Made by a program: the position numbers and the translations under genes. Below the pieces are notes generated by a model. That model did not search any database. It worked only from the letters and a program-made list of their open reading frames with translations, and was not told the origin of the DNA. DNA of 64,000 nucleotides from Polytrichum commune (Eukaryota; Streptophyta; Polytrichopsida; Polytrichales; Polytrichaceae): positions 36,223,554 to 36,287,553 of the forward strand of contig OX485803.1 of NCBI GenBank assembly GCA_950295325.1, in the 5' to 3' direction. Below are positions 20,801 to 64,000 of this stretch, piece after piece; positions within the stretch are counted from its first letter, which is position 1; each line of letters starts with the position of its first letter.

Positions 20801-23800
20801 GTGGAAACCCAGTAGAGGGCTTTAAATTTAAAATTAGAGGGCTTAAAGGCCCTCTAATTTTTGTAATGCCTGTATCGGGATTACATATAGACTTAGACCA
20901 ACTCGAAAATGGAAGCATCAACACCATAGTTCAGGCTGGTGGCAATGTCAGAGTCGTCTTTCTTTGCTTTCTTTCTAGCACTGAAAAGATGTTTAATCCT
21001 GAAGGGTGTGTATCGACACTTACTCAACATCGAACGCAGGTCAATTGCATTATGAGATGTAGGTACTTATTTTGTGAGTACTCTGAGCTATGAATGAGCT
21101 GAACTTCATCATCACAAATGACAAATTTAATCCCACCGGGTTGGAAATTGAACCTTGTTCCAGCCCCAACCGTATACTTGTCCCTGCTCATCGAATGCCA
21201 TCGAATGTCGCCAGCCTCCAGCAATCTGTGTTTCAAAAGCGCAAGATTCTTCACATTCGCATCATCTCAAAATGCAGTCGACAAACATTTCATGTTAAGC
21301 TAGTGTTGATACAAGCCCTTCAGGCTTGAATATCTTTTCAGTGCCAACTCAACATTTGGCTAAAGTGTCATTCATCAACACTGATTCAACTGATAAATCA
21401 ACTTTTCAGGTCTTTGCAACTATAAACTATAGAACAAAAGATTGAATTCACAACCCCATGTTTGGTATGCATTGATTCAATGTTGTGGTTGATGTTGATT
21501 ATGTATGAATCTAGAGGTTTGTGTGGAGAATATGTTATTGGAATTGGTCTTTGACGATGGTGAAGAGTTTGATATATGTCTCATTTGGTTGGGGGTTAGG
21601 ATTTAGGGTTTAAATTGGGGGCATACACTTTCAATCTTCCGGTTACGCAGGGCTTGCACTTCTCGGGGTAAAAGCTGGTCCTGGAAGTCTCCATGTCCAA
21701 GCTGCCCATATTTACTCCATCCGAACGTGAAAATACTGCCCGAGTCTGAGACAACAATCGTGTGCCGCCACCCACAAGCCACCATCTTCATCTTCTCACT
21801 CTGAACAAATTAACACGTATTAGAAGAAAAAGAAAAAGAAAAGATCGACTCAATTTGTCATATAGTGAGCTCCAATCCATGCATTATGGAAAGTATCGGG
21901 TGGTAAGAAGTTCTCATCTTATCCCATTGATTATTCACCTTTGGATTCTGAGAAATTTCCGACCTACAGGGTACGTTGACTACAATTTTCAGATTTCAGA
22001 TCATCATCTCAAAATGCAAAATGACCAGCATTCAACGTTAAGTCAGTGTTGATATATACTAACCCTTCGAGAAATCCTCCACATAAATCCTGAAGGGCTT
22101 GTATGTATCCAAATTGAGAAATATGTTTTCAGTGCTAGGTAAACATCTAGGTAATAATTCATTCATCAACATTGCTTCAACTCATCAGGTCTTGCAATGA
22201 TAAACTATAGAAACAGAAGACCAAAATTGCAACCCTATATCTGGTAGGCATATTGATTCAATGCTGTGAATAGATGGAATTGTACCAATGTGAAATCAGT
22301 GCTGATGAGTCCAGAGCTTAGTGATGTCATAGCTATGACTTTGCATACAAAAAGTTTCTTAATACTGCTCCCAACTTCTTCGATAGAACGATACAACAGT
22401 ACCCTCTATGACTGGCAGGTATGCTTAAGCACACATCTCAAAATGCAAGTCAATGTTGGTATGATATCTTTTCAGCGCTAACTCAGAATTTAGCTCATGA
22501 CTCATTCACCAACATTGATTCCACTCACACTTCAATTTTTTCAAGTCTTCCAACTACAAAATATAGAATTAAAATGGCAACCCTATGTCAATGCTAGACA
22601 ATGATATAGTTTAATGTAGTCTGAAGCAATGCAAAACCAGCTTTGGTTATGTATGAAGTTGAAGGTTTGTAATGCACACATTCAAAGTGACGACTTCAAC
22701 AGGAACGGATCTATCATCACGGTCGCCGAGTCCCAAATTTCCGTAACGGCCCCAGCCCCACCCATAGAGTTTGCCACTCACGGTGATTGCCGCAGTGTGC
22801 TCGGCTCCAGCAGCCACCACCATCACCTCCGTCCCCTGTGGTGAGATCGCAAAAAAATAACAGATATTTTTTTGGCGATTAATACCTTCACAACCACACC
22901 ATAAACCTCTAAATTCATATATCATCAACATTAATTTCACATTGATGCAGATATATTGAACTACATTATTAGAGTCAACATGCCTTTTGGTTGGGAGTTG
23001 GTTGTTTCGCATACACCAACACCTTCCATGTTTGGCAAGTTTTCGGTGCATGCTTGAAGGTAGTGTGGAGGTTTGAACGAAGAATATTCTATATTGGGTC
23101 AAACTCCATTGGCATGCCAAAAAAGGTCCTAAAATGAGTTTTTAACCCTCAATGAAGTTCACGAAATAGGTTGCTCTTAATTCAAATTCAAACGCTACCT
23201 TCAAGCATGCACCACAAGTGGAAAGAAATTATTGATTTGCTATGCAAAACAACCAATGGGAGATCATAGGGGACCACCTTCTGACTAAAAGCCCCGTTGA
23301 GTTAAAGGATAAATCTATTGAGTCAATGCGTACCAAACATAATAGGGTTGCAATCGTAATGGTTTGTTTCTATAATCTATACTTGCAAGACCTGAAAGGT
23401 TGAATTATGAATTGAATCAATGTTGACAGAATCATCATCTATACGTTGAGTTCGAACAGTAAATATCTTAGATTATGTGCAGTATGTATCAACACTAAGT
23501 CAACATGAAACTTGTATGTCACTTGTATTACCTCAAAGGTTTGGACTCTTTGTGGGCGAAGCGAATCATTGTTGTGGCCTAGACCCAGTTGACCATTTTG
23601 GTTGCGGCCCCAGCTGCATCGCTCAAGAACAAAGTTTCAGTATGCCCATGCAAATAAATAAAAACCGGTCAGCAAATCACGCACTTGTCCAATTTCTTGT
23701 CAAATGCGTGAATGAACATGAACATCATCATGTGCATCTCGGATCGTGGGGTTCAAATCCTACAAAGCGTAATTCTTTTATGATTTTAAGAAAAAACATA

Positions 23801-26800
23801 ATAGTTGATAAAACATATTTGAAAAATAGCTCAAGTTGGAGTTCAGTGGGGCTTGTGTACCTGTAGACTTTGCCCTCGGTCGAGATGGCAAGGCAATGAC
23901 TGTCGCCGCAGGCAATTTGCCGGATCTCTAGCCCTTGGAGCACCTGAATTGGATGAGGGATGAATAAGTCACTCGAATCTCCGTGCCCCAACCGCCCAAA
24001 GTCTCCCCTACCAATCAAAATGAAATTTCCATCAACAATTGACCAATGCCAAACTCAAAATTATCAAAACCACATGGCCCAAGAAGTCGCACTTTCCAGT
24101 ACTTGCCCATCAGAAACATGATCAACAGAACTAGGAATCGAACCACACTGGTATCACCTTTTTTGATACCTCTCGGCTTTATATGACGAGAATTTTAAAT
24201 GTAGTTTGAATACTGGGTATTTAAGGATATTTTTGATTTTGATACCGACTTTATGTACCATCCTCAAACCTTCATACCTAGGCAAAACTACCCTAGTATT
24301 GACATAGAATTAGGATGGTATATTGACCCAACTAATGACTCAGGTCTGCAAAGGTTTTTGCATCTTGCCAAGACCCACCAAGTGTCAAGATCGGACTAGT
24401 ATTACACTTTTAATATTGGTCAGGTGAGTTCTTCAATACCATTATTAAAAATGTGTGCTAACACCATGCATTCACCTGTATACACTGGTACTACCTGCCA
24501 TCCATTCAACATTAAAAAATACTCGGACCCCTATAGTAGGTTTGTGGTCGATTCATCTCAAATGAAATGACTTCAACTAGACTGATCGGGGGTCTTTGAA
24601 GCTAATTCCAGGGTCAAATCAACTTTACAAAGTTGTCATTAAAAGTTCAATGAATATGAGGTATGTTCGTATGAGAGAATTTCATCGCGCCTCCACCTGC
24701 GGTCCCAACATGCCTTTGCCCACACACCGGGTAGCGCGAGACCATTCACTTCCTCATGGGCTTCTAATTCAAGGTTTGCAGGCCAAATTCAGTTACTTAT
24801 CTTCGAGTAGTGGATGAGTTGGGTGCAGATCTAAGAACGGACACCAGAGAGACGTATGTTTAAAAGAGGGATCAGACTATGTTCTCAAAACTTGTTGATC
24901 ATTCTAGTCTCAGTAGTCAACAACATAATCTCGGGGGGTTCTTATCAATGATCAGGGAGAACCGGCAGTTAGTTACAGATGAACCGGTTGAGGTTGAAAA
25001 ATAACTGGTTGAAATTCAAGACTTCAGGAGAATTACCGATCACTTTAGAGGAATTTATGGAATATACCTCAAATTAATATAGAAAAAACCGAAGGATGTC
25101 AACACGCAACTGATTGGACTTGCAAACACTAGGATCTCAACCAATTATGCCCAAAAATCTCCCCGATCACTGGTTCTTGTGGCTCACTGTCCCTGGACTT
25201 TGATAAATCATAACAATCCCATCTTAGGCTCAAAAGTCGACATGTTTGGGGAGGGGACCTATACAACCACTTAATGAGCACAAGAATCTTCACTTTTGAT
25301 GATGAATAATATATTCATATAAGCTCCAAATATTATGAGGCAAATGGCTATGAGTACGATTTAGATTTGCTAATCATCTCGCACTAATTATACTAATAAA
25401 AGTTTGTGATGATGTACTGACCAGCCCCAGCTGTAGACAGTCTGGGTGGCGGCTGAGAGTGCAGTTGTGTGATCTGCTCCGCATGTAATTGAAGAGATTT
25501 CACAGTCTTCCAAAGCACTCACAATTGTTGGTAAGTGACGCTCCTCCGCATTGCCATGGCCAAGTTGGCCATCTTCACCTCGCCCCCATGAGCACACCAC
25601 ATCACCGGCTGCCATCAATCCAAGCCAAGCCAAGCCAAGCCAAGCCAAGCTCAGATCATCACAATTTTGGAAGTTTTTGGAAGAGAGATCATAATAGGAG
25701 TTATTCATTGATTCAACCGGAGTTTTGGTCGGGAGTTGGTTGTGTTGCATACAAACACTTTCCATGTTCGGTAAGTTTTTGGTGCATGCTTGGAGTCGGT
25801 GTGGAGGTTTGAACGAAGAACTTTGTATCTCGGTTCATTGGGGGGCCAAATTCTAATGGCAAAATCAACCAACTCCCGACCAAAACTCCAGCTGAATTAA
25901 CAGGTAACTCTTATGTCTATAACCATTTTGACATCTGAGGTTGTATTCCAGGATTGAGGAAGAGGATGACTTCCCTAGAGCTTATTCCTTGCCAAGAGCC
26001 TCCCAGTGTACGAATGGGGAGATCCAATCACTAGTTACAGATGAGCTGGTTGAGTTTGAGAAATAACCAGTTCAAGTTTGAGACTTTAGGCGAATTGCTG
26101 ATCATTTTAAAGGAATCTATAGAATATCCCTTAAATTAATAATGACAAACCGAATGATATCAACATACAACCGGTTGAACTTGGAAACACTTGGATCTCG
26201 ACCAATTTAGCCCAAAATCTCCCCGGGCACTGCTCACGGCCCGAGGGGCTTGCCTAGGCCGTCCTTCGTTAGAACCAAATGACATTCCGGGATTGGGAAG
26301 AGAATGACTTCTCTAGAACACAACCCTTGTCCTCCTCAGCCCTCAATCTAGGCCATCGATCTCCATGTTTGGAGGGCCCAGAAGGGGAGGGCACCAAAAT
26401 GGTTTTGTCCAACAACAATTCACAAAAAGGCAAGTACCAAACTTTCAAACAATTTAGCTCCCCCATCTTGTCCCTTGGGCCATCAAACTGTGAATGGCAA
26501 TCCCACAAAAACTCTCCAGTATCTCCAAACATCTCTAAAGCTCAAGATGATACAAAATTGCTGCAAAATACATGACATCTTGAGCAAGAGATCCTATTTC
26601 ACCAGCAAGAACAAAAATTATACTGGTGGACTGAGGAAGAGATTTCCAGGTGTAGGTTTGGGCTTGAACTTGTAAGTCAAGCCAAAAGCCACAAAAAGCG
26701 GGGACTGACCGTGATACAATGCACATTTACGTTAAGGGCTCAAGCTTGAGCTCATGTTGTGAGTGACAACCATATTAAAAAAAACTCCAGCGAGTCAAAA

Positions 26801-27585
26801 CATCTCTGAAGCTCAAGGTCACTCAAAAATTGCTGCAAAATGCATGACATTTCGAGAAGTAGAACAAATGTCACCCAAAAACAAAATTACACTGGTGGAG
26901 TGAGGAAGAGGTTTTCAAGTTCAAGTTTGGGCTTGAACTTGGAAATCAATCCACAAATTCAGGGACCAACCTGGACACAAAGCTCCACCATCTTAGGCAG
27001 ATGTAGGTTCAAGCTCTCAAGTTATTAATGACACCCCATAAAAAATCTCTAAAGCTCAAGATGTCACAAAATTGCTCCAAAATGCATGACATTTTGAGCA
27101 CAGAGATCCGATGTCACCAACACCAACAAAATGTGTACCGGTGGATGAGGAACAGATCTCCAAGTTCAAGTTTGGGCTTAAACTTGTGAATCCATCCACA
27201 GAAAGCAGTGACCAACCTTAGTATAGACAATTTAACTCCATCATACGAGGCACATTGGCCCACCAAACTTGCAAGCTTGAGCTCAAGTTGGAAGTAGAAA
27301 CCGCATATAAAAACTCCAGTGTGACTCAAACACTTCGGAAGCTCAAGATGACACAAGATTGCTGCAAAATGCATGACATTTTGAGCACTAGAACCAATGC
27401 CACAACAAAAATAACAAAACGGGACTCGCTCGCTCGCTCACTCAATGAAGGGAAGAGCAATACTTACAAAGGAGGGCCACCGTGTGACTGGCGCCTGCGG
27501 AGATGGTCAAAACTCGGCAAACTTCCCCACTCCCAGCCCCTTGCCACCTCTTGCCTGCACCTCCTCCACTTCTTGCATCCTCCAT
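17883..27585 (-). CDS. UVR8: UV-B photoreceptor UVR8, 11 exons
   Basis: Seven-bladed RCC1-type propeller that senses UV-B through tryptophans, then monomerises and binds COP1 to start photomorphogenic transcription (family knowledge). Exons read from the minus strand: 27585-27468, 25608-25422, 24007-23861, 23613-23532, 22835-22680, 21800-21627, 21225-21154, 20418-20361 (or 20368), 19740-19622, 18905-18820, 17998-17883. Frames agree across all junctions but one. RCC1 signatures are plain, e.g. CSWGRGEDGQLGHG, CGADHT, YGWGWGRYGNLGLGDR. The three GWRH motifs that hold the UV-sensing tryptophans lie in exons 6 (ACGWRHT), 7 (AGGWRHS) and 9 (ACGWRHT). The last exon has WVSPSERYAVVPDET, the VP motif of the COP1-binding tail, and stops at 17885-17883. 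The length, 435-441 residues, matches Arabidopsis (440). The start ATG is 27585-27583. Uncertain: exon 8 to 9. A donor at 20360 needs a microexon (19876-19866, 11 nt, with a gtaag donor, would restore frame); a donor at 20367 keeps frame without one. Confidence 0.95.
18060..18235. repeat. Repeat E, copy 2, in UVR8 intron 10
   Basis: Second copy of the 17512-17665 sequence (GTCTTGGGATCAAACTC, CCAGGTTTTCTTCAAG, CATACTAGCATGGGTGGGCC). It adjoins a possible SINE, 18240-18495. Confidence 0.65.
18240..18495 (-). mobile_element. Possible tRNA-derived SINE in UVR8 intron 10
   Basis: On the minus strand GTGAGTTCGATCC (about 18445-18433) resembles a pol III B box, with GGGTTAATAGAGTTATGC about 45 bases before it as a weak A box. 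The repeat E sequence would form its tail. No poly-A tail or target duplication was found. Confidence 0.3.
20634..20720 (+). pseudogene. 5S rRNA-derived sequence (SINE3-like or pseudogene)
   Basis: Read on the plus strand, antisense to UVR8 intron 7, the text GGATCCCATAGGAACTCCGA, GGTTGAGCC, TTAGTTAGTAC and AGATGGGTAACC follows plant 5S rRNA in order, covering box A, the intermediate element and box C with several changes. The first ~35 bases of a normal 5S gene are not recognisable and the 3' end diverges after the box C region. It could be a 5S-headed SINE or a stray 5S pseudogene. No second copy is seen in the window. Confidence 0.6.
20829..20862. repeat. Perfect short inverted repeat
   Basis: AAATTAGAGGGC and GCCCTCTAATTT are perfect 12-base arms with a few bases between them, just downstream of the 5S-derived sequence. 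It could be the end of a small element or a hairpin in the intron RNA. Confidence 0.6.
24140..24510. repeat. Dispersed repeat family D, copy 2, in UVR8 intron 2
   Basis: CTTCATACCTAGGCAAAACT, CCTAGTATTGACATAGAATT, TTCTTCAATACCATTATT and AACACCATGCATTCA follow the 51775-52260 copy in blocks, although the block order differs, so the family may be rearranged. Confidence 0.6.
24815..25395. repeat. Dispersed repeat family B, copy 3, split by a MITE
   Basis: The family B text is interrupted at about 24945 by the family A element and resumes about 25200 (AATCTTCACTTTTGATGATG, ATATTCATATAAGCTCC, GCTAATCATCTCGCACTAAT). The nesting shows the MITE came later. A short related piece is at 43680-43760. 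Confidence 0.65.
24946..25173. mobile_element. MITE family A, copy 2, in UVR8 intron 2
   Basis: Inverted ends CAATGATCAGGGAGA (24946) and TCTCCCCGATCACTG (to 25172), flanked by near-identical 8-mers GTTCTTAT and GTTCTTGT, which fits an hAT-type target duplication. It interrupts a family B repeat. Central blocks are those of copy 1. Confidence 0.75.
25712..25896. mobile_element. Foldback MITE in UVR8 intron 1, 31-base TIRs
   Basis: Left arm starts TTCAACCGGAGTTTTGGTCG (25712-25742); the right arm (25866-25896) is its reverse complement with two mismatches. A related copy, lacking clean ends, spans about 22990-23310 in intron 4: GGGAGTTGGTTG, TTCCATGTTTGGCAAG and GTGGAGGTTTGAACGAAGAA are shared. 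Confidence 0.7.
26004..26232. mobile_element. MITE family A, copy 3, in UVR8 intron 1
   Basis: Ends CAGTGTACGAATGGGGAGAT and ATCTCCCCGGGCACTG are inverted. Central text (TTACAGATGAGCTGGTTGAG, AAATAACCAGTT, TTTAGCCCAAAATCTCCCC) matches the other copies. No clear target duplication. Confidence 0.7.
26505..27410. repeat. Four-copy ~265 bp tandem repeat in UVR8 intron 1
   Basis: Four diverged direct copies spaced about 272, 241 and 288 bases apart, each with CTCAAG, TTGCTGCAAAAT, a CATGACAT anchor and GTTTGGGCTTGAACTTG-like text. A degenerate partial copy seems to precede them near 26280-26500. No coding potential. Confidence 0.75.
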
Positions 27586-41059: not shown

Positions 41060-41800
41060 GCTATAAATTATACACAATGAACTAAAAATAAGAAAGATAC
41101 ATCAAATTAAAGTTTGTTGGGTTTAGGCCCAACAAGCTTCAAATACAAATTACTTTCACATATCAACTTCATAATTTTAAAAAAAAAAAAATGCAAAGGA
41201 GGACTTAAATGATGCGCTTCCAATGAGCCTAAAATTATACACATTAGATTATATATGAAGAAGATATCTCAAATTGAAGCTTGCTAAGTTTAGGTCCAGC
41301 AAATTTCAAACACGAATTACTTTCACATACCAACTTCATAATGTTTTTAAACATATACAAAGCAACGCCTTATTATTACGCTTCCAGTGAGCCAAAAATC
41401 ATACACAATAGACTAAGAATAAGAAAGATACATCAAATTAAAGCTTGTTGGGTTTAGGCCTAGCAAGCTTCAAACACAAATTACTTTCACATATAATCTT
41501 TATATATATATATATTTAAAGAAGCGCTTTAAAAATACGCTCCTAATGAGCCTAAAATCATATACAATGATCTCCATATGAGAAAGGCATCTCAATTTGA
41601 AGGTTGTTAAGCCTAAATCCAATAAGCTTCAAATATCAATAATTTTTTTATATGAAGTACTGACAAAATATTAAAGGGATCTCTAGGAGCGCCTTCAAAA
41701 TAATGAGACAAAAATCATAAAGAATAAAGAATATATAAGAGAAAAATCGCAATTTAAGCTTGTTGGGCCTAAACCCAACAAGTTTCAAACTTTTATAAGT
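41060..41800. repeat. Five-copy ~165 bp satellite-like array with a conserved palindrome
   Basis: Units contain GCTTCCAATGAGCCTAAAAT-like text, AGAAAGATACATCAAATTAA, and a dyad of the form TTGTTGGGTTTAGGCCCAAC (41115 region, 41447 region and, as the clearest hairpin, 41759-41782). Spacing is about 157-167 bases. Copies two and four have decayed dyads. Confidence 0.8.
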
Positions 41801-43813
41801 TTTTTTTTCCTAATATCAAAACAAATTGTCAAAGTAAGGACTTTAAAACTTACCTTAATCATTCAACATATTTTAAGAATAAATAACGCATTAGACCCTT
41901 ATTCATTATATACGCAAATTAAAGAATTTAACTATAGTTGGAGTGCAATTTAGGGTTTAGGGTTACAAGGCCATCATATAGATAATTTTGAAATTTTGCG
42001 TTTTTGGAAAAATAATTATTGCTCGTACCCCCATGTTTGTGGGTAAATGGATGCTTAGGCAGTTAAGAATTAAAAACAAGTCAAATTTGACAAAAAAAAA
42101 TACTAGTGAAAGGTTTGAGCATGATAAAATTAATGGAAAAGGGATTTTTTGATGTCCTTTTAATTTGTTTATGTATGAATCAGTATAGATATCATACTGA
42201 TAGAAAATGCAAAATGATGCATCTAAAAAATTGGCATTGAAGTCAATATCAACATTTGTATAATGAAGTTGGTGAAAAATGATGGAACTTTGTATGCCTT
42301 TTTTTCACATAAATGTTTAGAATTATGCAAAGTAGAGTAAAAATTCAACAAAAAATGTGTAAAACGAAGACAAGTATTAAAAAAAACGATTGTAGGGTTC
42401 AATGCGAAAAATACTTTAACATCAAATTTTTATATATTTATAATGTTAAGTAATAATAATTTTATTCAACAAAATTGATTGAATATATATTATTTTAATA
42501 AATATTGAAAATTTTCTTTTAAATGTTATGTGTAAAGTATCAAATTGATTTTAATGGTATTCAACCATTAAAATGAAAATTTATATTATTAAGTTCTAAA
42601 TTTTATGATATTCAGGGATAATACATTACATCTTTCATATTTTACAAACTTCAAAAAACACATATTATACACATTTAGTTTGTAGCAAAAAACCTTGGGA
42701 ACTTAAGGGTTAAAACGAATCAGATTGACATCTATGGAAATGTACTACTCAAACCCTTTTAAACATCCAAATCGAAAAAAATTCAATCCATTAGATTACA
42801 TTACATTAAAATTAAACTTGTAGAAAAATATAATTACAACACACTTATATTGCATTTACATCCCACTTCCTCTTTTTAACTCTAATTCTCCTAGTTTACA
42901 GAGGTGTCAATCAAAATTCACTTTACCAATCATGCTTGCACCCGAAAGGGGGTGTTACTTTTTGATATCCTTGAAAATTTTCTTCCCACCAAAAGTAATC
43001 TAATATCGAATATCTTGGATCAATTATAATATGATTTATCAAATGATTATGCACATCATTGACTTGCGATAAGCAATACGATAATAAGTCAATGAAAGGA
43101 TATTTCAGCCCTCCCACATTATAGCCTCTTCATCTCTTCCATACAAATTTCAATTTGAAATGATTACAAATTTAGCCTTTTTCAAAGTAAAATGCATCAA
43201 CAATTTTTATTTATTATTTACTGAAGATAATATAAAAAATTGGCATGTATAAAGTGAAAATTCATTATTATTCAATATTTCAATTTAGAACATGCCAATT
43301 TTGGTTTCATACTCTAAATAAAAACAATAGGAAGAAAGAAAAAATTATGAATTTTTTCCATTAGTATATTACCTTTGGACTCCTAGCTTAATAAACTATG
43401 GCTCTTACAAATCAACTTCAATTTGTTTTTTGCCACTTACTAACTTCTCTCAACATGAACAATAGAACCTCTATAATCATATTTCTACAAGTGGTTTTCA
43501 AATTTCAAATAACGAATATTCTTTTACATGTTTACAAAGAAAGTTTCCAAAGATATATTAAAAATAAAAACTTTTACATATCACTAATGTATCTCTACGT
43601 ATGGGCATGTATGAAAATACAACTCAATATAAAATTTACTCATTTGGTTGTATATCTCAATAACTACCACTAAATTAACATGTGTTTAAAAGAGATTAGA
43701 CTACATGTTCAAAATTTGTATACCATTCTAGACGCTTACTCAACATAATTGGAAGAACTTATGTGGCCTTCGCATGACTAGAGTGCCACATCATAAGAAT
43801 GAGCCTGAGTGTG
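41801..43813. other. Extremely AT-rich intergenic DNA
   Basis: Over 70% A+T by eye, no repeat or gene recognised. It contains one TTTAGGGTTTAGGGTT telomere-like word near 41950. It ends at the PUR3 upstream region. Confidence 0.5.
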
Positions 43814-44217: not shown

Positions 44218-47200
44218 ATGGAGCTTTCCGTGCGTTCAAGTTGTTTTGCAAGGCAATTAGGAGCCTCTGTATCCCTTCGGGCTGCAATCGGTGGGCCAGC
44301 CTTTGGTGCCCAAATTAGGGGTTTCCAAGGAAAATGGAAGAAGAGCAGACTAGTTTCTACTTCTTTCGCTTCCCAAAAACATGCTCGGTGGCAGGTTTTG
44401 TGTGCAGTGTCACAGGATGCATCACAGGAAGTGGTGGGCGGGGATATGAATGTGAAGGGATTAGAAGAGAGGAGAGTGGACGATGATGGCTTTACCCGGT
44501 CGAAGATGGCAGTGTTTGTGTCTGGAGGGGGTTCCAATTTCCGAGCCATCCATGCTGGTTGTTTGAGCAATCAGATTTATGGTGACATTGCTATTGTGGT
44601 TTCAGATAAACCTGGTGAATTCCTCATCCTCTTTGTTTTTCTGTGGTGAAATGACGATTTCACAGATTTGTGGTCCTTGTAGATGTGTAGTAGTTCTTCA
44701 TTTCGCAGCGTCTGTTTCCACTTTCAATTAGATTTGCTTTCGTAAAACCTGAGATTATAGAATACATGTTGTGGATGTGACATTTACATGTTCCACTTAC
44801 ATCATTGTTGATGTAGGTGGACTTGTTGGTGTTATTGACCCTATGAATGTGTGGATGTCGTTATGGAGTTCGTGTTGTGTTGTAAGCAGTTTCTTTCGGA
44901 ACAGAGTTTCTTGCTCCAAAAGCTGATCGTTTTTCGTTGGGTAGGTTGCGATGGTCTCCATCATGCGTTGGATAAGGAGATTATGGAGTTCATGTTGTGT
45001 TTGAATTAGGAGTTTCTTGTCATAAAACACGATCGTTTTTCGTGGGGTAGGTTACAAAGGTTGTGCTCATGCGAGGGTTAATCATATTAGTGAGTACATG
45101 TTGTGTCGTAAGCAGTTTGTTGGAATTAGAGGTTCTTATCACAGAATGACTGCTTTGTGTGGGGTAGGTTGCAAGGGTTGCGTCTATGCAAGAGATAATG
45201 AGATGGTGTTGTGCTTGATTATGCAAGACATAATGAGATTTTGGAGTACATGTTGTGCTGTGAGCAGTTAGTATTGAATTAGAGTTTCTTGTGACAAAAT
45301 CTGATCGTGTTGTATTTGTGGGATAGGTTGCAAGGGTTGCGATTATGCAAGAGACAATAACATCGATGTTGTGGCTTATCCAAAGGGAAAGCATGCACCA
45401 GAGGGGGTTTCTCCAACTGAGCTAGTAGACTCTCTCAGGTGCATCATCTCTACCATCTGGTTTGCAAGCCTACTGATATCTTAACCTTGGCTGTAGTAAC
45501 TTACATGTGGACATGACAACTGTCATATCTTCTTATTGGCTTGCCAAAGTTTTGAAGTGTATTTCACAAAAAGTCATTGAAGTTGCTGACTGGTGATCAA
45601 GGAATGGAGGTTGAGTTACATTACTTATTGTAGACGTGCAGGTGTTGAGTATATCCTCTTGGCTGGCTATCTGAGACTCCTTCCAAGTGAGCTGGTCCAG
45701 GGCTATCCGCGTGCTATTCTCAACATTCATCCGGCCCTGCTTCCTGCCTTTGGGGGAAAAGGCTACTATGGTGCAAAAGTACATGAAGCTGTTATTCGCT
45801 CAGGTGCCCGGTAAGCAACTATATGCTCATGCTCTCTTGTATTACTGTACATTGATGTCTGGTTCAGGACTTTTGAGTGCTGAAAGGTGCTTTCCATGTA
45901 GGATTTAGTAGGTCTTTGTCAATGTGAGTACAACACATGTCAAAGTTCTAAAAAATGTATGTCTAATTATATAGCACCTTACAGTAATCAGATTATTGAG
46001 TTGCATGTGAAAGAGTACAGTTAAGGGACCTGTCTATTAGGCATGTTCACTACTTCAGTGCAAGTTCTCCTTCCTTGGATGGGCCATTGCTGGCTTTATG
46101 TACGAAGATGCACTGTCTACGATCTGAACAGTTTTGAAACCAGTTTCAGAACCTGGGTTCAAAATTGTTCAATTGGTAGTTCAAGCCCAGTTTCAGAATA
46201 TAGTGTTGAGGTTGAAGATGGTACAGTGTAGACTACCCATTTAAATCTACACCTGGAGTCATTTGTGTATTGGCAATGATACTCAAGATTATTACAGTTT
46301 TTTTGACCATGTTCTTGATGGCTAATTGTTGTGTGAGCCAATGACATCACACTCATCATTGGTATTGTTTACCTGTTGCTATTTTCAAAGGTGCAGTGAC
46401 CTTCCCACCATTTGTCCAAAAAGCTGGTCAAATCTAGTCTTGAAATGAGTCTTGTGGGTCTGAAGTACTTGGATTGGAACCAGTCTGTCTATCTGGAATT
46501 AAGAAATTTATTAATGCAACCAATCTTCCAGCTGCAATTTTCCTATTCTTTTGGTTGTAATTTTGGTCACTTACAAATCACCTAGCAAGGGTCTACTTCT
46601 AACAGTGGCTTATGTGGCGGTGATGGTTTATATCACAGTTTGTCTGAGCAAGACTTTGACGAAAACTATATATTTTCTGAGCCAATTTGAAACTTTCAGA
46701 CCTGTTTTCAAGTCTGCAGCTGTAGGTGTCTGTTTTGTGAGCAATTTTTCAATTTTTTTGTGGGTTGTAGTTTAGTTCAGCTGTAGGTGTTTAGTTTTGT
46801 GGGTCAAGTTTTGATAGTGGGCTATATGGCGCTGATGCTTTATATCACAGTTTGTCTGAGCAAGCTTTGACGAAAACTATATATTTTCTGAGCCAATTTA
46901 AAACTTTCAGACATGGTTTCAAGTCTGCAGCAATAGGTGTCTGTTTTTGTGAGCTTTTTATTTTAAAATCTTATTTTAGTTTTAATTTTAAATTTTTTGG
47001 TAGGTTGTAGTTTTTGTCACCTCAGTTCACCTAGCAAGGCTCAACGTCTGATAGTTCGCTTATGTGGCACTGATGCTTTATATCACAGTTTGTCTGAGCA
47101 AGCTTTGACGAAAACTATATATTTTCTGAGCCAATTCAAAACTTTCAAACATGGTTCCAAGTCTGCAGCAATGGGTGTCTGTTTTTGTGAGCAAATTATC

Positions 47201-48718
47201 TTTTTTTTTGTAGGTTGTAGTTTTTGTCATCTCAGTTCACCCAGCAAGGCTCAACTTCTGATAGTTCGCTTATGTGGCGCTGATGCTTTATATCACAGTT
47301 TGTCTGAGCAAGCTTTGACGAAAAACTATACTTTTTCTGAGCCAATTCAAAACTTTCAGACATGGTTTCAAGTCTGCAGCAATGGGTGTCTGTTTTTGTG
47401 AGCAAATTATCTTTTTTTTTGTAGGTTGTAGTTTTTGTCACCTCATTTCACCCAGCAAGGCTCAACTTCTGATAGTTCGCTTATGTGGCGCTGATGCTTT
47501 ATATCACAGTTTGTCTGAGCAAGCTTTGACGAAAAACTATACTCTTTCTGAGCCAATTCAAAACTTTCAGACATGGTTTCAAGTCTGCAGCAATGGGTGT
47601 CTGTTTTTGTGAGAAAATCTTCCTTCTTTTGTAGGGTGTAGTTTTTATCACCTCAGTTCAGCTAAGAAGGGTTAATTTTTCACGCTGGGTATATGGGGTG
47701 CTGATGCTTTATATTACAGTTTGTCTGGACGAGTCTTTGATGAAAACTATTATTATCTGAGCCATTTTAAAACTTTCAGGCATGGATTTGAGTCTGCAAC
47801 AGTGGGTATCTGTTTATTTTTTTGTTACTTTAGGGTGGTTCATCCAGCAGTGGGCATCTTTTGACGTTGGGTTTGTGCGGCACTGATGCTTGATATCACA
47901 GTTTGTGTGAGCGAAGTCTTTGATGACAACCGAATCTCTGAGCCGCTTACACCAATAATTGCCTCAAAAGAAACTGCTCTAGATTTTCCTGTTGTATGAC
48001 ACTTTTGCAGTCAAATTTTGTCTGTACTAATCCCCTCAATTGAGTTCAAAAATGTTGTATAGAAGTCAATTCGGCTGGCTGTGATGGTATACTCCATTTA
48101 CTTCACAGTTTGTCTGAAACATGGATTGGTTTTACAGTATATCTGAGCCATGTCAATATTATGGAGTGCACCACCTTAAAGGTCTGTGGTTCCAGATATT
48201 CATTAATTTTGGTGTAGACACTATAAACGAGTCTGCTGTTTGAAATGATAATATTGAACATATTATGCAGCTCACAATTTTGGGGTCAAAGAACAGAATT
48301 TGGAAGTGATGTAGTATCAAATATTTCTTGAGTTTCTAGAGACTGTGAATACAATTTTCTGGGGTGTTGGACAGATATTCTGGTGCAACTATTCACTTCG
48401 TAGATGAGAAGTACGACAGTGGTCCTATTCTCGCACAGAGAGTTGTTCCTGTGCGAGCTGATGATACTCCATCTGATTTGGCTGCCCGAGTGCTAAAAGA
48501 GGTGTGCTTTCTTCTCATTTCTTTCATTCAATTTAATTCAGTGCCGATCTTCAAGCAAATTAAAATTCGTATGTCATCAACTCATAGAATGTTGGTGTCC
48601 TCAGGAGCACAAAATGTACACGGAAGCAGTGTCAGCATTATGTGAGGATCGAATATTCTGGCGGGAGGATGGTGTGCCATTGATACGTAAGTCGTGGAAT
48701 GAAGCAGAGTACTTGTGA
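44218..48718 (+). CDS. PUR3: Phosphoribosylglycinamide formyltransferase (GART), 5 exons
   Basis: Transfers the formyl group of 10-formyl-THF to GAR, giving FGAR, the third step of de novo purine synthesis, in plants in the plastid. Exons: 44218-44614, 45327-45438, 45634-45810, 48375-48501, 48605-48718; all junctions are GT-AG and in frame, giving 308 residues. Residues 1-95 are Ser/Arg-rich and look like a transit peptide. The fold opens with KMAVFVSGGGSNF (GGGSN near 103-107). LNIHPALLPAFGGKG carries the catalytic pair N200 and H202. ATIHFVDEKYDSGPILAQ carries H236 and D243, equal to E. coli PurN H137 and D144. The C-terminus WREDGVPLI matches plant homologues. The start is the first ATG ahead of the transit-like segment. 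A gtaag inside the last exon (about 48687) looks like a donor but reading through fits the family end. Confidence 0.95.
44860..45326 (+). repeat. Tandem repeat in PUR3 intron 1 carrying splice-acceptor copies
   Basis: About four direct copies, spaced roughly 104-160 bases, each ending in a GGGTAGGTTGC-like 3' splice site followed by exon-2-like text. The acceptor copies are near 44944, 45050 and 45167; the real one is 45324-45326. The third copy shares TAGGTTGCAAGGGTTGCG with the real junction. Each unit also has a GAGTTC/GTACATGTTGTG block. Confidence 0.8.
46540..47960 (+). repeat. Seven-copy ~210 bp tandem array in PUR3 intron 3
   Basis: The anchor TGATGCTTTATATCACAG recurs near 46620, 46832, 47070, 47280, 47491, 47701 and 47883; the central spacing is 210-212 bases and those copies are nearly identical, while outer copies are diverged, as expected for array growth by unequal exchange. 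Open frames across 46997-47612 come from the repeat and are not genes. It accounts for over half of the 2.56 kb intron. Confidence 0.9.
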
Positions 48719-58775: not shown

Positions 58776-60487
58776 CAAAGTGTCACGTGAGGTGACATCG
58801 GGGGCTAAGTTACGTCAATTTAGGAGTAAATGGACTCCATTAGGAGTGCATGTGTGTTGGGATGAATAACGGACTCCATTGGGAGTCCTAGTTAGTTGTT
58901 CATCCACTCCATGGATGAACTCCACATAGGATTGGGGTTGTATGGAGAGGAAGGCCCCTTGACTTGCCATTGTTGTCAAGTCAAGTCTTGTGAGTATGTT
59001 TTGAGAGAGAGAGAGCTTGTTGTTGCTTTCTCATGGCTACGGTGTAGTAGATTATGAGTAAAACCTTTGCATTCTTTCTTCACCACTTGCACTCTTGGAT
59101 TCTCCCTTCGTGGAGTGAGAGATAGCTTGACTCTTGTGTGTGAATTTTAGAGTTTCTTAAGCTTTATAAGGAGACATTTTAGTTTCTTAAGCTTTGAGAG
59201 AGAAACCCTCATACTTGACAACAATGGCTCAAATTTTTCATTTTTTGGTTGTATTTCTGAGCTAGAATGGCCCAGTATTGAGAGCAAATGAGTGATACAA
59301 GTGTTTGAAAGCTTAGTTTGTCATTTCTTGCAGCCCTCAAGAAGATTTTGAGAGAAATCTTCCCATTTTTCTTTTGTTGTCTCTTTGTGTTTTCTTCAAG
59401 TGTTGATGGTTGAATCTTGAGATTCCATTTGGTCTTAAGATTCTCAAGTCACATTATTCTTGCTTGCAATTTGTAAAAGCAAAGTTTTTTTTAAAAAAAT
59501 TTTTTTACAAACAAACACAAACCAAACTTACAATCCGAATTTTTTATAATTTTTTTTGAGCTCCGGAGCTCCACGGACACTCTTGGAGCTCCAATTCTGC
59601 ACCCGGGGGCGGCAAAATCCCGGGCCGGGGGCGGGCGGGCGGCGCCAGCCGGGCCCCGCGGCGAGGTGGCAGCGGGCGGGCGACAGCCTGGCCGAGGTGG
59701 CAGGCGGCGCCAGCCTGGCCCCCCCTTAAATTGCGGCTCCATGGCGGCTTCAAGGTAAGCCTCCCTTAATTAGGCTAGTTAACTTAATTAACTTAATTAA
59801 CTTAGTTAATTAAATTAGGTTAGCTTAATTAGGTTAGGTTCATTAGTTTAAATTAATTAAGTTAGGTTGAGTTAAATTAAATTATTTAAGTTAATTCATT
59901 TAAGTTAATTAAGTTAATTAAGTTTATTTTTATTTTTATTTTTGTTTAATTAAAACAAATATTTTTATTTTATTTTATTTTATTTTCATATTTTTCCTTT
60001 CACCTTTCAAACTTGGCATCCAATTCTCACAAACTTTGAGGTTCAAATTTGGGGGCATACTAGCTCCGATTGGAGTGAAATTTGAGCCTATCTTGTGTGA
60101 AATTTGCCAAGGAATCCAATGGTGTAATTGGATTGTTGATTGGAATTCAAAATCATTGCTGAAATTATTAATTTCAACGCTGATTTTTGTTTTTGGGAGC
60201 AAATTAACTCCGAACGGAGTGAAATTTGAGCCTAATTTGTGTGAAATCTTCCTAGGAGTCCATTGGTGCACTTAGTTTGTTGATTGGAGTCCATAATCAC
60301 CTTGGAAATGAGCCTTTTCAACGCTGATTTTTCATTTTAATTACCAATCTCAAACCTTTGCACAATTTTGGAATTCTGGGGGCATAAACACTTGGCATTT
60401 GGCAAGGGATTGCCATTTAGATAGCCCACAACAGGTGCAGGTTGCCATTACCTTGTAGATAGTTGCAGGTACTCAAGTGATTATTTT
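58776..60487 (+). other. Retrotransposon leader or 5' LTR region
   Basis: No gene. From left: a possible LTR start at ~58780; a GTTCATCC/GGATGAAC hairpin (about 58898-58920); a stretch with GAGAGAGA tracts (about 59005, 59190); the perfect palindrome GAGCTCCGGAGCTC (59558-59571); a GC block of over 80% G+C to ~59730; ATG GCG at 59741 followed by a strong AAG|GTAAG donor (59754/59755); TTAATTA low-complexity; two copies of a ~146 base unit sharing GGAGTGAAATTTGAGCCTA (60073 and 60219); then a GCAG acceptor at 60467-60468. Confidence 0.6.
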
Positions 60488-61186
60488 ATGGTGCAAACTA
60501 GGAGCCGATATTATCGATCTCCATCACCAGATTACTTGGAGGACGTGCATACCACAAATCTTGAGCCAGAGGTAGATACCAACGAGGCTTTTGAGCCTAT
60601 TTCGGCGTTGGACACTACTAGTAGGCTTCAAATTTGGAGTGTCGGCACGTTCGACGAAATGGAGGACGATCGCCACAATTCAGTGCGTGATCGGTTTTCA
60701 GGTCGAGCTGGGGGCATTTCCTTGCCCGATTGGAAACTCCGGTTTCGTACCTGGATTAAGGAGAAACGCCAAAGGTCTTCCAATTTCAATGATTGGTATG
60801 CCTTTGAACTTCTGCCTCAACATTTGGAGTATGAGGCACTCCAAACTTATGAACGCTGGACAGAGGGTCATCAGCGACAACTTTGGGAGGTGGAGCAGTA
60901 TTGGGAGGCTCGGGTTGAGCTCATTTCAACCCTTAAGGATGGGGCGGTTGCTACCTTAGCTCCACCCACCTTAAAGGAGGAGGAATCGCCGGCGGAGTCT
61001 AAGGACACGGAACTGGCACTTGGGCCAATGGTGGCTAGCAGTAGCACGGCAACCCTTTCACGGGTGGCACGTGCTACACAGGCAACATTGATAGCTGTTG
61101 GTCCACCACCTCCGTTTGATCCCCTTACTGAATTTGTCGCACATTTGGAAGTGGAGTATGGTGGGTTTCGGCGAGACCAGATGTAG
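60488..61186 (+). CDS. Retrotransposon gag, N-terminal part, ended by in-frame TAG
   Basis: 232 codons from ATG 60488, beginning MVQTRSRYYRSP, typical of plant Ty3/gypsy gag starts, then acidic linkers and a helical core with aromatic residues (WKLRFRTWIKEK, AFELLPQHLEYEAL), as in retrotransposon gag domains. It ends in TAG at 61184-61186 in the middle of the gag fold, and the same frame continues open at 61187. A gag/pol boundary would not fall there, and a CAG to TAG transition is the simplest cause. It is preceded by a leader that may contain an intron, see the findings. Confidence 0.85.
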   Translation: MVQTRSRYYRSPSPDYLEDVHTTNLEPEVDTNEAFEPISALDTTSRLQIWSVGTFDEMEDDRHNSVRDRFSGRAGGISLPDWKLRFRTWIKEKRQRSSNFNDWYAFELLPQHLEYEALQTYERWTEGHQRQLWEVEQYWEARVELISTLKDGAVATLAPPTLKEEESPAESKDTELALGPMVASSSTATLSRVARATQATLIAVGPPPPFDPLTEFVAHLEVEYGGFRRDQM

Positions 61187-63427
61187 CGCATCCAGGATTT
61201 CCGCCGAGAGAAGGATGATAGTCCACGGACCATGTATACGCGACTCGCACGATTTGCTGTGGAGTCGGGAGGTGTTTTTGCTGAGAGTCAGCTTGTTAAA
61301 ATCTTTTTGTCTAAGATTGACAAGCGGCTACTTGAGTTGGCATCACCTCGGATTATCCTCGACTACGAGGGCCGAGCTACGCTTGCACAAGCATTTGCCG
61401 TGGTTGAGAGATGTGATCGGGCTCTTTGCCAACATGATGCCACGGATATGGTATCTTGGACGACAGAGAGTCCGAAATCAAGAAGAATTGTCACAGCTAC
61501 TAGTAGTTTAGCTGAGACTCAATCCGTCAAGGAGCAAAAGATTTTGCATTGTTGGGGTTGTGGAGAAGCTGGTCATTCGAAGAATGATCCCAATTGTCCT
61601 AAGAAGAAGAAAACTCAACCTTTGGGAAAATTAAAACAAAAGATGGAACCAGTAAAGGCAGGGGACAATTCTAAGAAGAGACAATTGAAATGTAACCATT
61701 GTGGTGGCACTAATCACGATGTGGATCATTGTTTCCAACTTCATCCTGAGATGCGGCCTGCCAGTTATGTCACTGGAAAGTCTCTAAGGGAGCAGAGTCT
61801 TGAGGCTAAGGTGGCAGAGCTTGAGCAAAAGCTCAAACCTTCTGCATCTTTTGCTCAAATTTCTGAGCCGCATGTGGGTGGTGGCACCTCGGGTTTGGAC
61901 ATGTATATGTTTGGAGCAGCTGGAGAGGTGGTGGCGGCGGCTTCTACTCGCTCACAAACATTGGCAGATGCGGTGGCTTCCACGAGTGGTGGTAGCAACG
62001 AGGTGCTACATCCTCGCCATGCCGGACCAGCTGATCAAATTGGTCAAGCATGTTTACCTCTTTCATTTGGATTGGTAGACACCACTGTTGTTGGGGCTAA
62101 AAACCCTGTACCTTTGAGAGATGGGGATTCCATCTCGAAGGATGTTACGCAGGCATTGGCATATAAAATTCTCCATATGCCAATTTTCTCGGGTTTGGAA
62201 TTTATGGCTTCGGATTTCAAGCCTGCTGCAGTTTTTCATTTAGCTGGGAGAATGTTAGAAGGTAAGGCGGATTTGCCATCCCTTCAAGTATCCCAAGCTG
62301 TGGTTGACGTACCTGTGGCTGAGGAGGTGGAGGACTTAGCCAATTTGCGAGCGAGTCTTGCGGATGCGGCGATCATTGCTTTTGGTAAGCAAACTGTTAT
62401 TCCTCCAGCATCAATTTCAGCAGTGGATACGTCATTTTCGAATTATGCGTCGGGAGCGGCATATCTTGCAGACATTTCTGCAAGGCCTGCTCGCGAACGG
62501 CATAATTTGCAACCTGGAGTTGTACGGCTGATGAACGACAAATCTTTGTTTGTCGTTTCACGCACGGATATGCCCACTATCCGTGCTACACCACTGAGAG
62601 TTATGATGGATTCCGGTGCTCAACCGGTTATGATTGGCAAAGGACTTGCTGACAGTCTTGGATTGACGCCAGTAAGCTTAGATCCTTGTCCATTCACTAT
62701 TGTGACTTCAGTAGGGGGCACTGAACGTGCAACAGGTTACACCAATGCACCTTTACGTTTGATTTTTCATGTGGGGGCAGGGCCTACTTACATTCATTTG
62801 TCAATGAAGTGTGTTGTTACTAATGCTACCAACTATGATATACTTGTTGGTCAGCAAGCTTTTTACCCACTTGGCTTTGGTTTGGATAATTGGATGGAAG
62901 AGGCATGGATTAGACCGGGATGGTCCACTAGAGATGGCAGGAAGGTATTTATTCCCGTCACATTTGCAGCCACTGCTATGACTATGGTTGCGGAGGCAAT
63001 GTTTGGTTGCAGCGGTTCAGTTGCAGATTTGCCTTGTGCTCCAGTTTTATTGGAGGAAACAATGGACTACACTTGTAATGCGGCAGAACAACAATTTTTA
63101 CCATCTTTTCAAATTCCTGCTCGACATTTCAAGGATCCACCTCCACCATGGCGAACTCCTAAGGAGTTATCCGACCATTGTCAACACATTGTAGCGGATT
63201 TGGAGCTTGGAGAGGCACCCCCAACTTCATCCTCATTTTCTTTTGCTCAACCCATTCGTTGGCAACCATCACCTGAAGGTATTGTCCTTGTGGAGATCTT
63301 TGGAGGCATTGGCACAGGTTTGGCGGCAGTGTTGGAAGCTGGAATTACAGTTGGCGATATATTAATGTGGACAATGGGTATGCAGCCAACAGAGCCGTCC
63401 GACACCACATCCAACAATTGTTGTTGA
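61187..63427 (+). CDS. Retrotransposon gag C-terminus, zinc knuckles, protease and start of MTase
   Basis: Open in the same frame after the TAG. The first ~80 codons finish the gag fold (FLSKIDKRLLEL, AFAVVERCDRAL). Two zinc knuckles follow: CWGCGEAGHSKNDPNC (a CX2CX4HX6C variant) and CNHCGGTNHDVDHC (canonical CX2CX4HX4C). A long low-conservation linker leads to a retropepsin with the catalytic MDSGAQPVMIGKG and, later, DILVGQQAFYPLGF. About 130 residues on, and still before any reverse transcriptase, comes VEIFGGIGTGLAAVLEAG, motif I of C5-cytosine methyltransferases. The frame then ends at TGA 63425-63427, because the reading frame shifts just after motif I. Confidence 0.9.
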   Translation, partial: RIQDFRREKDDSPRTMYTRLARFAVESGGVFAESQLVKIFLSKIDKRLLELASPRIILDYEGRATLAQAFAVVERCDRALCQHDATDMVSWTTESPKSRRIVTATSSLAETQSVKEQKILHCWGCGEAGHSKNDPNCPKKKKTQPLGKLKQKMEPVKAGDNSKKRQLKCNHCGGTNHDVDHCFQLHPEMRPASYVTGKSLREQSLEAKVAELEQKLKPSASFAQISEPHVGGGTSGLDMYMFGAAGEVVAAASTRSQTLADAVASTSGGSNEVLHPRHAGPADQIGQACLPLSFGLVDTTVVGAKNPVPLRDGDSISKDVTQALAYKILHMPIFSGLEFMASDFKPAAVFHLAGRMLEGKADLPSLQVSQAVVDVPVAEEVEDLANLRASLADAAIIAFGKQTVIPPASISAVDTSFSNYASGAAYLADISARPARERHNLQPGVVRLMNDKSLFVVSRTDMPTIRATPLRVMMDSGAQPVMIGKGLADSLGLTPVSLDPCPFTIVTSVGGTERATGYTNAPLRLIFHVGAGPTYIHLSMKCVVTNATNYDILVGQQAFYPLGFGLDNWMEEAWIRPGWSTRDGRKVFIPVTFAATAMTMVAEAMFGCSGSVADLPCAPVLLEETMDYTCNAAEQQFLPSFQIPARHFKDPPPPWRTPKELSDHCQHIVADLELGEAPPTSSSFSFAQPIRWQPSPEGIVLVEIFGGIGTGLAAVLEAGITVGDILMWTMGMQPTEPSDTTSNNCC

Positions 63428-64000
63428 GATACCCCGCACAATTGTCAGCCTCTGCCATTCATGGATGTTGTGGTCAACTTCCTCAAGATGTCACTATGAT
63501 TAGTGATGAGGATTTGAGAAGGTTGGGCCACGTGGATTTGATTATTGCAGGATGGCCTTGTCAAGGCCATTCGCGGGCAGGAATTGGCCAGGGATTGGAT
63601 GACCCTAGATCTAGTTTGTTTGCGGATTTGATGCGATTGACGCAATGGTGGTTTACCCACCAATCAACTCCGCCAGGGTATATTTTCGAAAATATACCAT
63701 TATTGGGTGATACACGGCACAAAGTGGTGAAGGATGGTGAGTACATTAACCAAATTCTGGGTACTCCAACATTTCTGGATGCTGCATCTTTGGGATCCTT
63801 TGCTCATCGGCCTCGTTGGTTTTGGACAAACTTGGTATCATCTCGGGTGCTTTCAACGGCGATTGCCCGCATTCCCCGCCTTATGGATCGCAAGGTGGAT
63901 GACATTTTAGATGATCATCGTGTTTCCTTGGCAGTTACCAAGGATGATACCTTGCCATTTGCATTAATTAACAAGGTGGGCATTCCGAGAGGTGCACTAC
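63277..64000 (+). CDS. C5-cytosine DNA methyltransferase domain, DNMT3-like, frame -1, runs off window
   Basis: Codons starting at 63277 stay open to the last base, overlapping the previous frame by about 150 bases. After the point matching motif I in the other frame come: IAGWPCQGHSRAG with the motif IV Pro-Cys-Gln (63556-63564, catalytic Cys codon 63559-63561), IFENIPLLG with the motif VI ENV-like Glu (about 63688), and LGSFAHRPRWFWTNL, motif VIII. The (S)AHR-x-R-(Y/W)FW signature is typical of DNMT3/DRM enzymes, and the motif order I, IV, VI, VIII is canonical, unlike the circularly permuted plant DRM. So DNMT3-like is the best call. The final motifs lie at or past the edge. Confidence 0.85.

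Follow-up and report, generated by a model that had tools for sequence, protein, structure and literature searches.

A moss retroelement with Gypsy-type enzymes, DIRS-like repeats and a DNMT3-like methyltransferase on the Gag side of a conserved UAG codon

Retrotransposons that carry a cytosine methyltransferase of the Dnmt3 type have been described in an alga and a dinoflagellate. According to the main text of one paper (PMC5890265), these are KnitGypsy-Dnmt3 of the charophyte Klebsormidium nitens and SymbioDIRS-Dnmt3 of Symbiodinium; de novo CG methylation by retrotransposon methyltransferases is reported there, Symbiodinium enzymes were expressed in yeast, and the repeat layout A-coding-B-A-B is described for DIRS-like elements of Symbiodinium. 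A passage of another paper states that methylase transposons are absent from land plants, such as tracheophytes (PMC6338049), and a third mentions retrotransposon DNMT3 for streptophytes and dinoflagellates (PMC12344493). We have studied a stretch of 64,000 nucleotides of the moss Polytrichum commune (contig OX485803.1, positions 36,223,554 to 36,287,553, forward strand), termed here the window. From position 58781 to its end, on the plus strand, the window contains the 5′ part of a decayed retroelement. We consider it probable that this belongs to a group of elements that combine Gypsy-type enzymes with DIRS-like repeats, express their polymerase by UAG readthrough, make a methyltransferase at the level of Gag that acts on new or nearby DNA, and steer their insertion with a PHD finger. 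The kind of element is already known, and we judge the moss variant to be new in its Gag-side methyltransferase and readthrough layout. The titles and abstract openings of the literature searched, a partial collection taken without supplements, contain neither a bryophyte methyltransferase element nor its readthrough.

The closest known element is KnitGypsy-Dnmt3, compared here by its published description, not by sequence (PMC5890265). As described, it shares with the moss element a Dnmt3-type methyltransferase, a reverse transcriptase (RT), ribonuclease H (RNaseH) and rve integrase of the Gypsy type, and DIRS-like repeats, and it too has many intronless copies and purifying selection. The methyltransferase, however, lies in the Pol polyprotein open reading frame (ORF) of the algal element, and at the end of the Gag-protease frame, before the UAG, in the moss. 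The words readthrough and PHD are absent from the main text of the algal paper, whereas the moss element has a putative UAG switch and a PHD finger. SymbioDIRS-Dnmt3 resembles the moss element in carrying a methyltransferase within a retroelement and in its A-coding-B-A-B repeats. In contrast to the moss element, with its rve integrase and 4-bp target duplications, it has a tyrosine recombinase and its methyltransferase shares the ORF of the RT (PMC5890265, main text).

The genome searched comprises 407.8 Mb in 64 contigs. The window sits on contig C1, one of the large contigs C1 to C7 (42-78 Mb for those with a stated length). Contig C8 has two full frames of the PsaA/PsaB type and is taken for the plastid genome. 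The best PDB matches of its PsaB frame are chains 8htu, 6l35 (also 7xqp) and 7ksq (also 7kux), at 1701-1705 bits, and the two that follow score 1667 and 1630; 6l35, 7ksq, 7kux and 7xqp are from Physcomitrium patens. The host is by these matches most likely a moss, and seven chromosomes would be in keeping with Polytrichaceae. In a search with PF00145 all 123 scored candidates (from 352 first-look candidates) were above the cut-off, and in a search with the PHD end all 150 scored candidates (from 508) matched; both copy counts are lower bounds. The genome holds hundreds of copies of the element, which are present on every one of C1 to C7. The first-pass annotation of the window had taken this for a land-plant element, which is supported, and a one-off insertion, named beforehand as the finding that would speak against it, does not hold. 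A chance motif match is excluded because all 123 scored PF00145 candidates matched and because metagenomes contain proteins with 90-96% identity (P0001, P0053). There are at least two families in the genome, A (that of the window) and B, with 64% identity between their methyltransferases. Both frames are open in three of the four copies outside the window that were read end to end, and a frame of exactly 1386 codons is open in 9 of the 123 PF00145-positive loci; the methyltransferase stretch is free of stops and gaps in 16 of 36 distinct family-A copies. In three copies the two A repeats could be compared over 439, 422 and 438 aligned sites, with 0, 0 and 2 differences respectively (excluding 3, 15 and 25 gap columns; the 422 is set by the end of the stretch taken), and these insertions are therefore recent.

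Full copies have the order A (~438 bp), leader, ORF1, TAG, ORF2, B (~105 bp), GC, A, B. ORF1 encodes Gag, protease and methyltransferase, and in family A it has 1386 codons from stop to stop, or 1366 residues from the Met. ORF2 (1047 codons) contains, by Pfam, RT, RNaseH, an integrase zinc domain, the rve integrase and, at its C terminus, a PHD finger (PF00628, E = 2e-10). Three of the four copies read outside the window are organized as A-coding-B-A-B, and the fourth (C6, 31.1 Mb) as A-coding-B. A pattern for the B-GC-A junction, with its two middle bases left free, was found at 124 places in the genome and nowhere in the control. The element begins with TG and ends with CA, and all four copies are flanked by target duplications (CATC, TAGC, TCTT and ACTT). 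Identical full long terminal repeats (LTRs) were not seen at the two ends, the 5′ end having A alone and the 3′ end B-A-B. An ordinary 438-bp LTR pair is ruled out, since the 3′ end carries B-A-B. The element thus combines Gypsy-type enzymes, as identified by their Pfam domains, with DIRS-like split direct repeats.

Similar split direct repeats, A1-coding-B1-A2-B2, are found in PAT/Ngaro-type elements, but these have tyrosine recombinases; the moss element differs from them in its rve integrase, its TG...CA ends and its target duplications. The A-coding-B copies (C6 at 31.1 Mb, and the window copy) are most simply explained if their two B repeats have recombined with each other. Both (L012 with L011; window 58781 to C1:36291699) have target duplications at or near their flanks, and may be either B-B recombinants or a second insertion form. 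The first-pass annotation had described an LTR retrotransposon with its methyltransferase in a polyprotein between protease and RT, and had called for an extension beyond the window, by which RT, RNaseH, integrase and the 3′ repeats have now been located. The TG...CA ends and 4-bp duplications agree with that description, but there are no ordinary LTRs. The methyltransferase does lie between protease and RT, but a conserved UAG follows it and there is no single uninterrupted polyprotein.

In alignment, the methyltransferase (METHYLTRANSFERASE) has its motifs in the unrearranged order I, IV, VI, VIII and an X-like end, unlike DRM. All 14 relatives in the alignment, with identities as low as 44%, keep the catalytic Cys, the motif VI Glu and the motif VIII Arg. 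The solved proteins closest to one relative, P0056, are DNMT3B (E = 4e-8), DNMT3C and DNMT3A, with HaeIII a thousandfold weaker at 4e-5, HhaI at 9e-4 and plant DRM structures at 0.08-0.4; no DNMT1 or CMT chain was found up to E = 1. The methyltransferase stretch of the window itself matches DNMT3C at 5e-6 and HaeIII at 3.5e-5, a margin of only about sevenfold, and for the distant relative P0131 HhaI and DNMT3A are about equally weak matches. Pfam found no ADD or PWWP domain in ORF1, and the sole NCBIfam match, in five of five proteins, is to the general dcm model, below its cut-off. A tree of 24 rows places 16 element methyltransferases together (86/95) and the human and host DNMT3 sequences apart (92/89), the joining of phage sequences being weakly resolved; the DNMT3 rows of this tree are 24-42% filled, long branches are flagged, and DRM, CMT and MET1 rows were left out. 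Judged by its motif order and by the closest solved relatives of P0056 the enzyme is DNMT3-like, as the first-pass annotation had proposed.

The host genome has a DRM gene (L062, E = 6e-52 to DRM2) with the rearranged motif order, and two DNMT3-like exons, L063 and L064, the latter with E = 7e-8 to DNMT3A. Capture of the methyltransferase from the host's own DNMT3 is not supported; L063 and L064 group with human DNMT3 and not with the element enzymes, in a placement that carries a long-branch warning and in which only a quarter of the columns are filled in their rows. Phage methyltransferases have 26-34% identity among the matches listed (8 of 464 phage records in one search), and do not join the element enzymes in the weakly resolved tree.

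Comparison of the methyltransferase between families gives dN of ~0.2-0.3, with dS near saturation, and a dN/dS ratio (nonsynonymous to synonymous divergence) of ~0.08-0.12, taking one copy of each. The ratio between families is 0.4-0.6 in the ORF1 tail and 0.04 in RT. The methyltransferase is under purifying selection between families. Within family A, C-to-T plus G-to-A make up 59-62% of singleton changes; a methylation footprint was sought, and there was no clear context signal (0.37, 0.26 and 0.30 changes per site for CG, CHG and CHH).

The two ORFs share one register and are separated by a single UAG in three diverged families, A, B and C. The genome was searched with junction patterns in which neither the stop nor the six bases after it were fixed. 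Family A gave 142 matches (reversed-pattern control 0) and family B 228 (control 19); the listed junctions are ranked by their best-kept flanks. Among the best 100 listed, family A has 99 TAG and one TAA, that of the window copy, and family B has 98 TAG and two sense codons. The hexamer CARYYA follows the stop in 99 of the best 100 listed for family A and in 89 of those for family B. Family C is represented by one locus (L057), with the sequence TAG CAATCA; both frames are open here too, each truncated where the stretch taken ends. CARYYA is the tobamovirus-type readthrough motif, and an in-register UAG with this hexamer before the polymerase frame is common to tobamoviruses and the moss element.

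An 11-nt spacer separates the stop from a predicted RNA fold, a long stem closing ~100 nt, in families A, B and C. The z values are −2.1 (A), −4.7 (B, where the stretch folded started 5 nt inside) and −4.4 (C). Covariation was analyzed in 11 sequences chosen from 35 distinct ones of the three families. In this fold 96% of cells are paired, compared with 37-54% in slid controls. Five stem pairs have changed on both sides, and two of these, 20-111 and 21-108, split family A from family B cleanly or nearly so. In 500 shuffles the observed values for paired cells, double-change cells and covariation score were each reached 0 times. Fewer synonymous changes near the stop were also considered as a sign of RNA constraint; this was hinted at first, but finer windows were noisy and it cannot stand alone.

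The gag-UAG-pol junction of murine leukaemia virus likewise has an in-register UAG and a 3′ RNA structure (PMC5009743, in the part consulted), but the moss fold is a long stem in which a pseudoknot is not demonstrated. The moss element differs from both groups of virus in having the 3′ structure and CARYYA together, in being a plant retroelement, and in that its stop places the methyltransferase on the Gag side. In the single B copy and the single C copy examined, the first Met of ORF2 does not occur before codon 117, inside RT, and a restart at ORF2 is therefore unlikely; the family-A copy examined has a Met at codon 14. Taken as strong evidence, these features would by far most simply be read as programmed readthrough of the UAG. 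The methyltransferase, being encoded in ORF1 before the UAG, would therefore be made with Gag and not with Pol, on the abundant side.

We propose that the genomic RNA would encode Gag-protease-methyltransferase, the UAG and, without a change of frame, RT-RNaseH-integrase-PHD. At the UAG most ribosomes would halt, giving Gag-protease-methyltransferase in bulk, and a minority, aided by CARYYA and the 3′ RNA fold, would read through it to give Gag-protease-methyltransferase-Pol. Both products would be packed into particles, with the methyltransferase in Gag-like amounts. There the enzyme, if active, could methylate the new complementary DNA (cDNA) of the element, or DNA nearby, before integration, with a presumed benefit to the element. 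The PHD finger at the end of the integrase would guide insertion by reading its putative ligand, a histone tail. The solved PHD fingers that match it best include those of CHD4, PHF12, KAT6A, PHF21A, KDM5 proteins, UHRF1 and ATXR5, and several of the best-matching fingers recognize H3 tails that carry no modification on K4.

A number of observations weigh against this scheme. The 142 and 228 junctions include near-identical kin copies and are not independent, and 11 of the best 100 listed for family B do not fit CARYYA. Support for the fold comes from 11 sequences of three families, and family A alone has a z of only −2.1; among the 500 shuffles, 19 reached the observed count of doubly changed pairs and 353 the observed count of pair types. 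Variation within family A was counted in 34 copies for the methyltransferase and 31 for the RT side, out of 37 (a duplicate was removed together with two copies in an advanced state of decay, and on the RT side three more for which the stretch was too short). Methyltransferase singletons (0.94) and variants present in two or three copies (1.10) look neutral, and only those present in at least four copies are constrained, at 0.32 of expected (10 nonsynonymous, 11 synonymous). The corresponding values on the RT side are 0.86, 0.49 and 0.14, so that even in the commonest class constraint is weaker in the methyltransferase.

The neutral appearance of the rare variants would also fit an enzyme that is a passenger without a catalytic role, kept as a structural spacer; we consider this improbable in view of the three invariant catalytic-motif residues in all 14 relatives and of a dN/dS of ~0.1 between families. 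It is similarly a slim chance that the UAG is an ordinary stop and that ORF2 is expressed by re-initiation, by splicing or from a separate transcript. The Met at codon 14 in family A would allow this, but the B and C copies offer none outside RT, and the frame, CARYYA and the RNA fold have all been conserved. A larger, though still minor, probability attaches to an element built as we describe whose methyltransferase is directed at the genome or chromatin of its host, such as in silencing rival elements, rather than at its own cDNA. An abundant, soluble Gag-protease-methyltransferase could reach host DNA, and a similar host effect is raised in the discussion of the Symbiodinium paper (PMC5890265); on the other hand the Gag frame points to particles.

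A placement with bacterial contamination was the other outcome that the first-pass annotation had named as speaking against it. To this reading, of a contaminant or a gene of bacterial origin within the assembly, we give virtually no credence. Some relatives are found in records labelled as bacterial metagenome-assembled genomes (P0068 and L057), but bacterial origin is ruled out by copies on all of C1 to C7, by target duplications and by the presence of more than one family. Moreover, the 36 sites in prokaryotic genomes that matched the pattern include a single relative, L057, which is itself a retroelement and has both ORFs. The relatives with prokaryotic labels appear to be mis-binned pieces of this kind of element. 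L057 (CADCWO010000201.1, cyanobacterial label) and P0068 (Obscuribacterales label) are both apparent plant contamination. Scans of viral contigs found no relatives in four stretches and, in a second scan with alignment, two in 19.

The search for protein relatives found 394, of which the best 120 are listed, among 7998 candidates scored. Relatives of the methyltransferase are named from Sphagnum troendelagicum, Calypogeia fissa and Marchantia polymorpha, along with many metagenome records; the name Klebsormidium nitens does not occur among the protein matches listed. A protease motif precedes the methyltransferase, the only Pfam match, in the Sphagnum protein P0101 and the Calypogeia protein P0150, which are therefore likely to be element proteins too. 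In the distant relatives P0131 and P0154 the methyltransferase stands directly before integrase domains, unlike the order in the moss families. That green algae share the lineage is suggested by the K. nitens paper and by unnamed records such as these two. We raise only tentatively, as possible but on balance doubtful, the idea that bryophytes and green algae share an old lineage forming a self-contained epigenetic system. This would have a capsid-linked methyltransferase that a readthrough switch sets at the levels of structural protein, an integrase with a PHD histone reader, and new copies methylated in advance at chosen chromatin, and its methyltransferase would be a long-lived, separate DNMT3-like branch without recent host capture.

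The copy in the window starts with the 5′ terminal repeat A (~438 bp with a TG start, 58781..59218; this and the features that follow are on the plus strand), which corresponds to the 3′ copy of A in three full elements. The untranslated leader (1.27 kb, 59219..60487) resembles those of other copies, and contains a tandem duplication of 144 bp (60048-60332). It is A+T-rich, with a brief, strongly G+C-rich patch at 59600-59740. The first part of Gag (60488..61183) stops at an in-frame TAG (61184-61186), a site occupied by Gln in the relative P0054. The second part (61187..62587) includes both of the zinc knuckles that the first-pass annotation had reported, one a stretched variant, CX2CX4HX6C (61550-61597), and the other CX2CX4HX4C (61691-61732). 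That annotation had begun the feature at 61187, which is too late, Gag starting at 60488 and the element at 58781. Its retropepsin is present as a MDSGAQ core (62588..62749; PF13650, E = 3e-4), with a score of 21.7 bits, below the curated Pfam cut-off of 24.3.

The first part of the methyltransferase (63232..63349) contains motif I, EIFGGIGTG, and is followed by a frameshift at ~63350-63366. The second part (63367..64000), which matches PF00145, contains motif IV, GWPCQG (Cys codon 63559-63561), motif VI, ENI (63688-63696), and motif VIII, AHRPRWFW (63802-63825), and runs on beyond the window, its continuation being read in L009. The PF00145 match has E = 1e-11 and 45 bits (cut-off 22). Thus all four motifs of the earlier reading are there, but motif I is in one frame and the other three in another. 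Further lesions are a TAA later in the methyltransferase and stops within RT and ahead of the PHD finger, and the ORF1/ORF2 junction has TAA instead of TAG. With several stops and a frameshift, this copy is dead. It ends with a single B repeat ~4.1 kb past the window (C1:36291699), and has the layout A-coding-B; an AAAG target duplication fits only if one A has been lost.

Elsewhere in the window, Tandem Repeats Finder identified an array of ~211-bp units with ~90% matches at 46534-47930, and self-comparison revealed more imperfect tandem arrays at 41065-41805 and 26507-27419. An open frame on the minus strand at 22647-23120, likely a host exon, contains the stretch GKLYGWGWGRYGNLGLGD, which we take to resemble an RCC1 repeat. 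No match to Rfam at gathering thresholds and no tRNA by ARAGORN was found in the window.

Retroelements that carry their own cytosine methyltransferase test why a parasite should carry the very mark that is used to silence it. The moss families are recently active and of high copy number, and with the relatives in Sphagnum and two liverworts they bring this question within the reach of experiment in cultivable plants; Marchantia, moreover, is transformable. A Gag-side methyltransferase with a readthrough switch predicts that the enzyme would be present in the particle in bulk.

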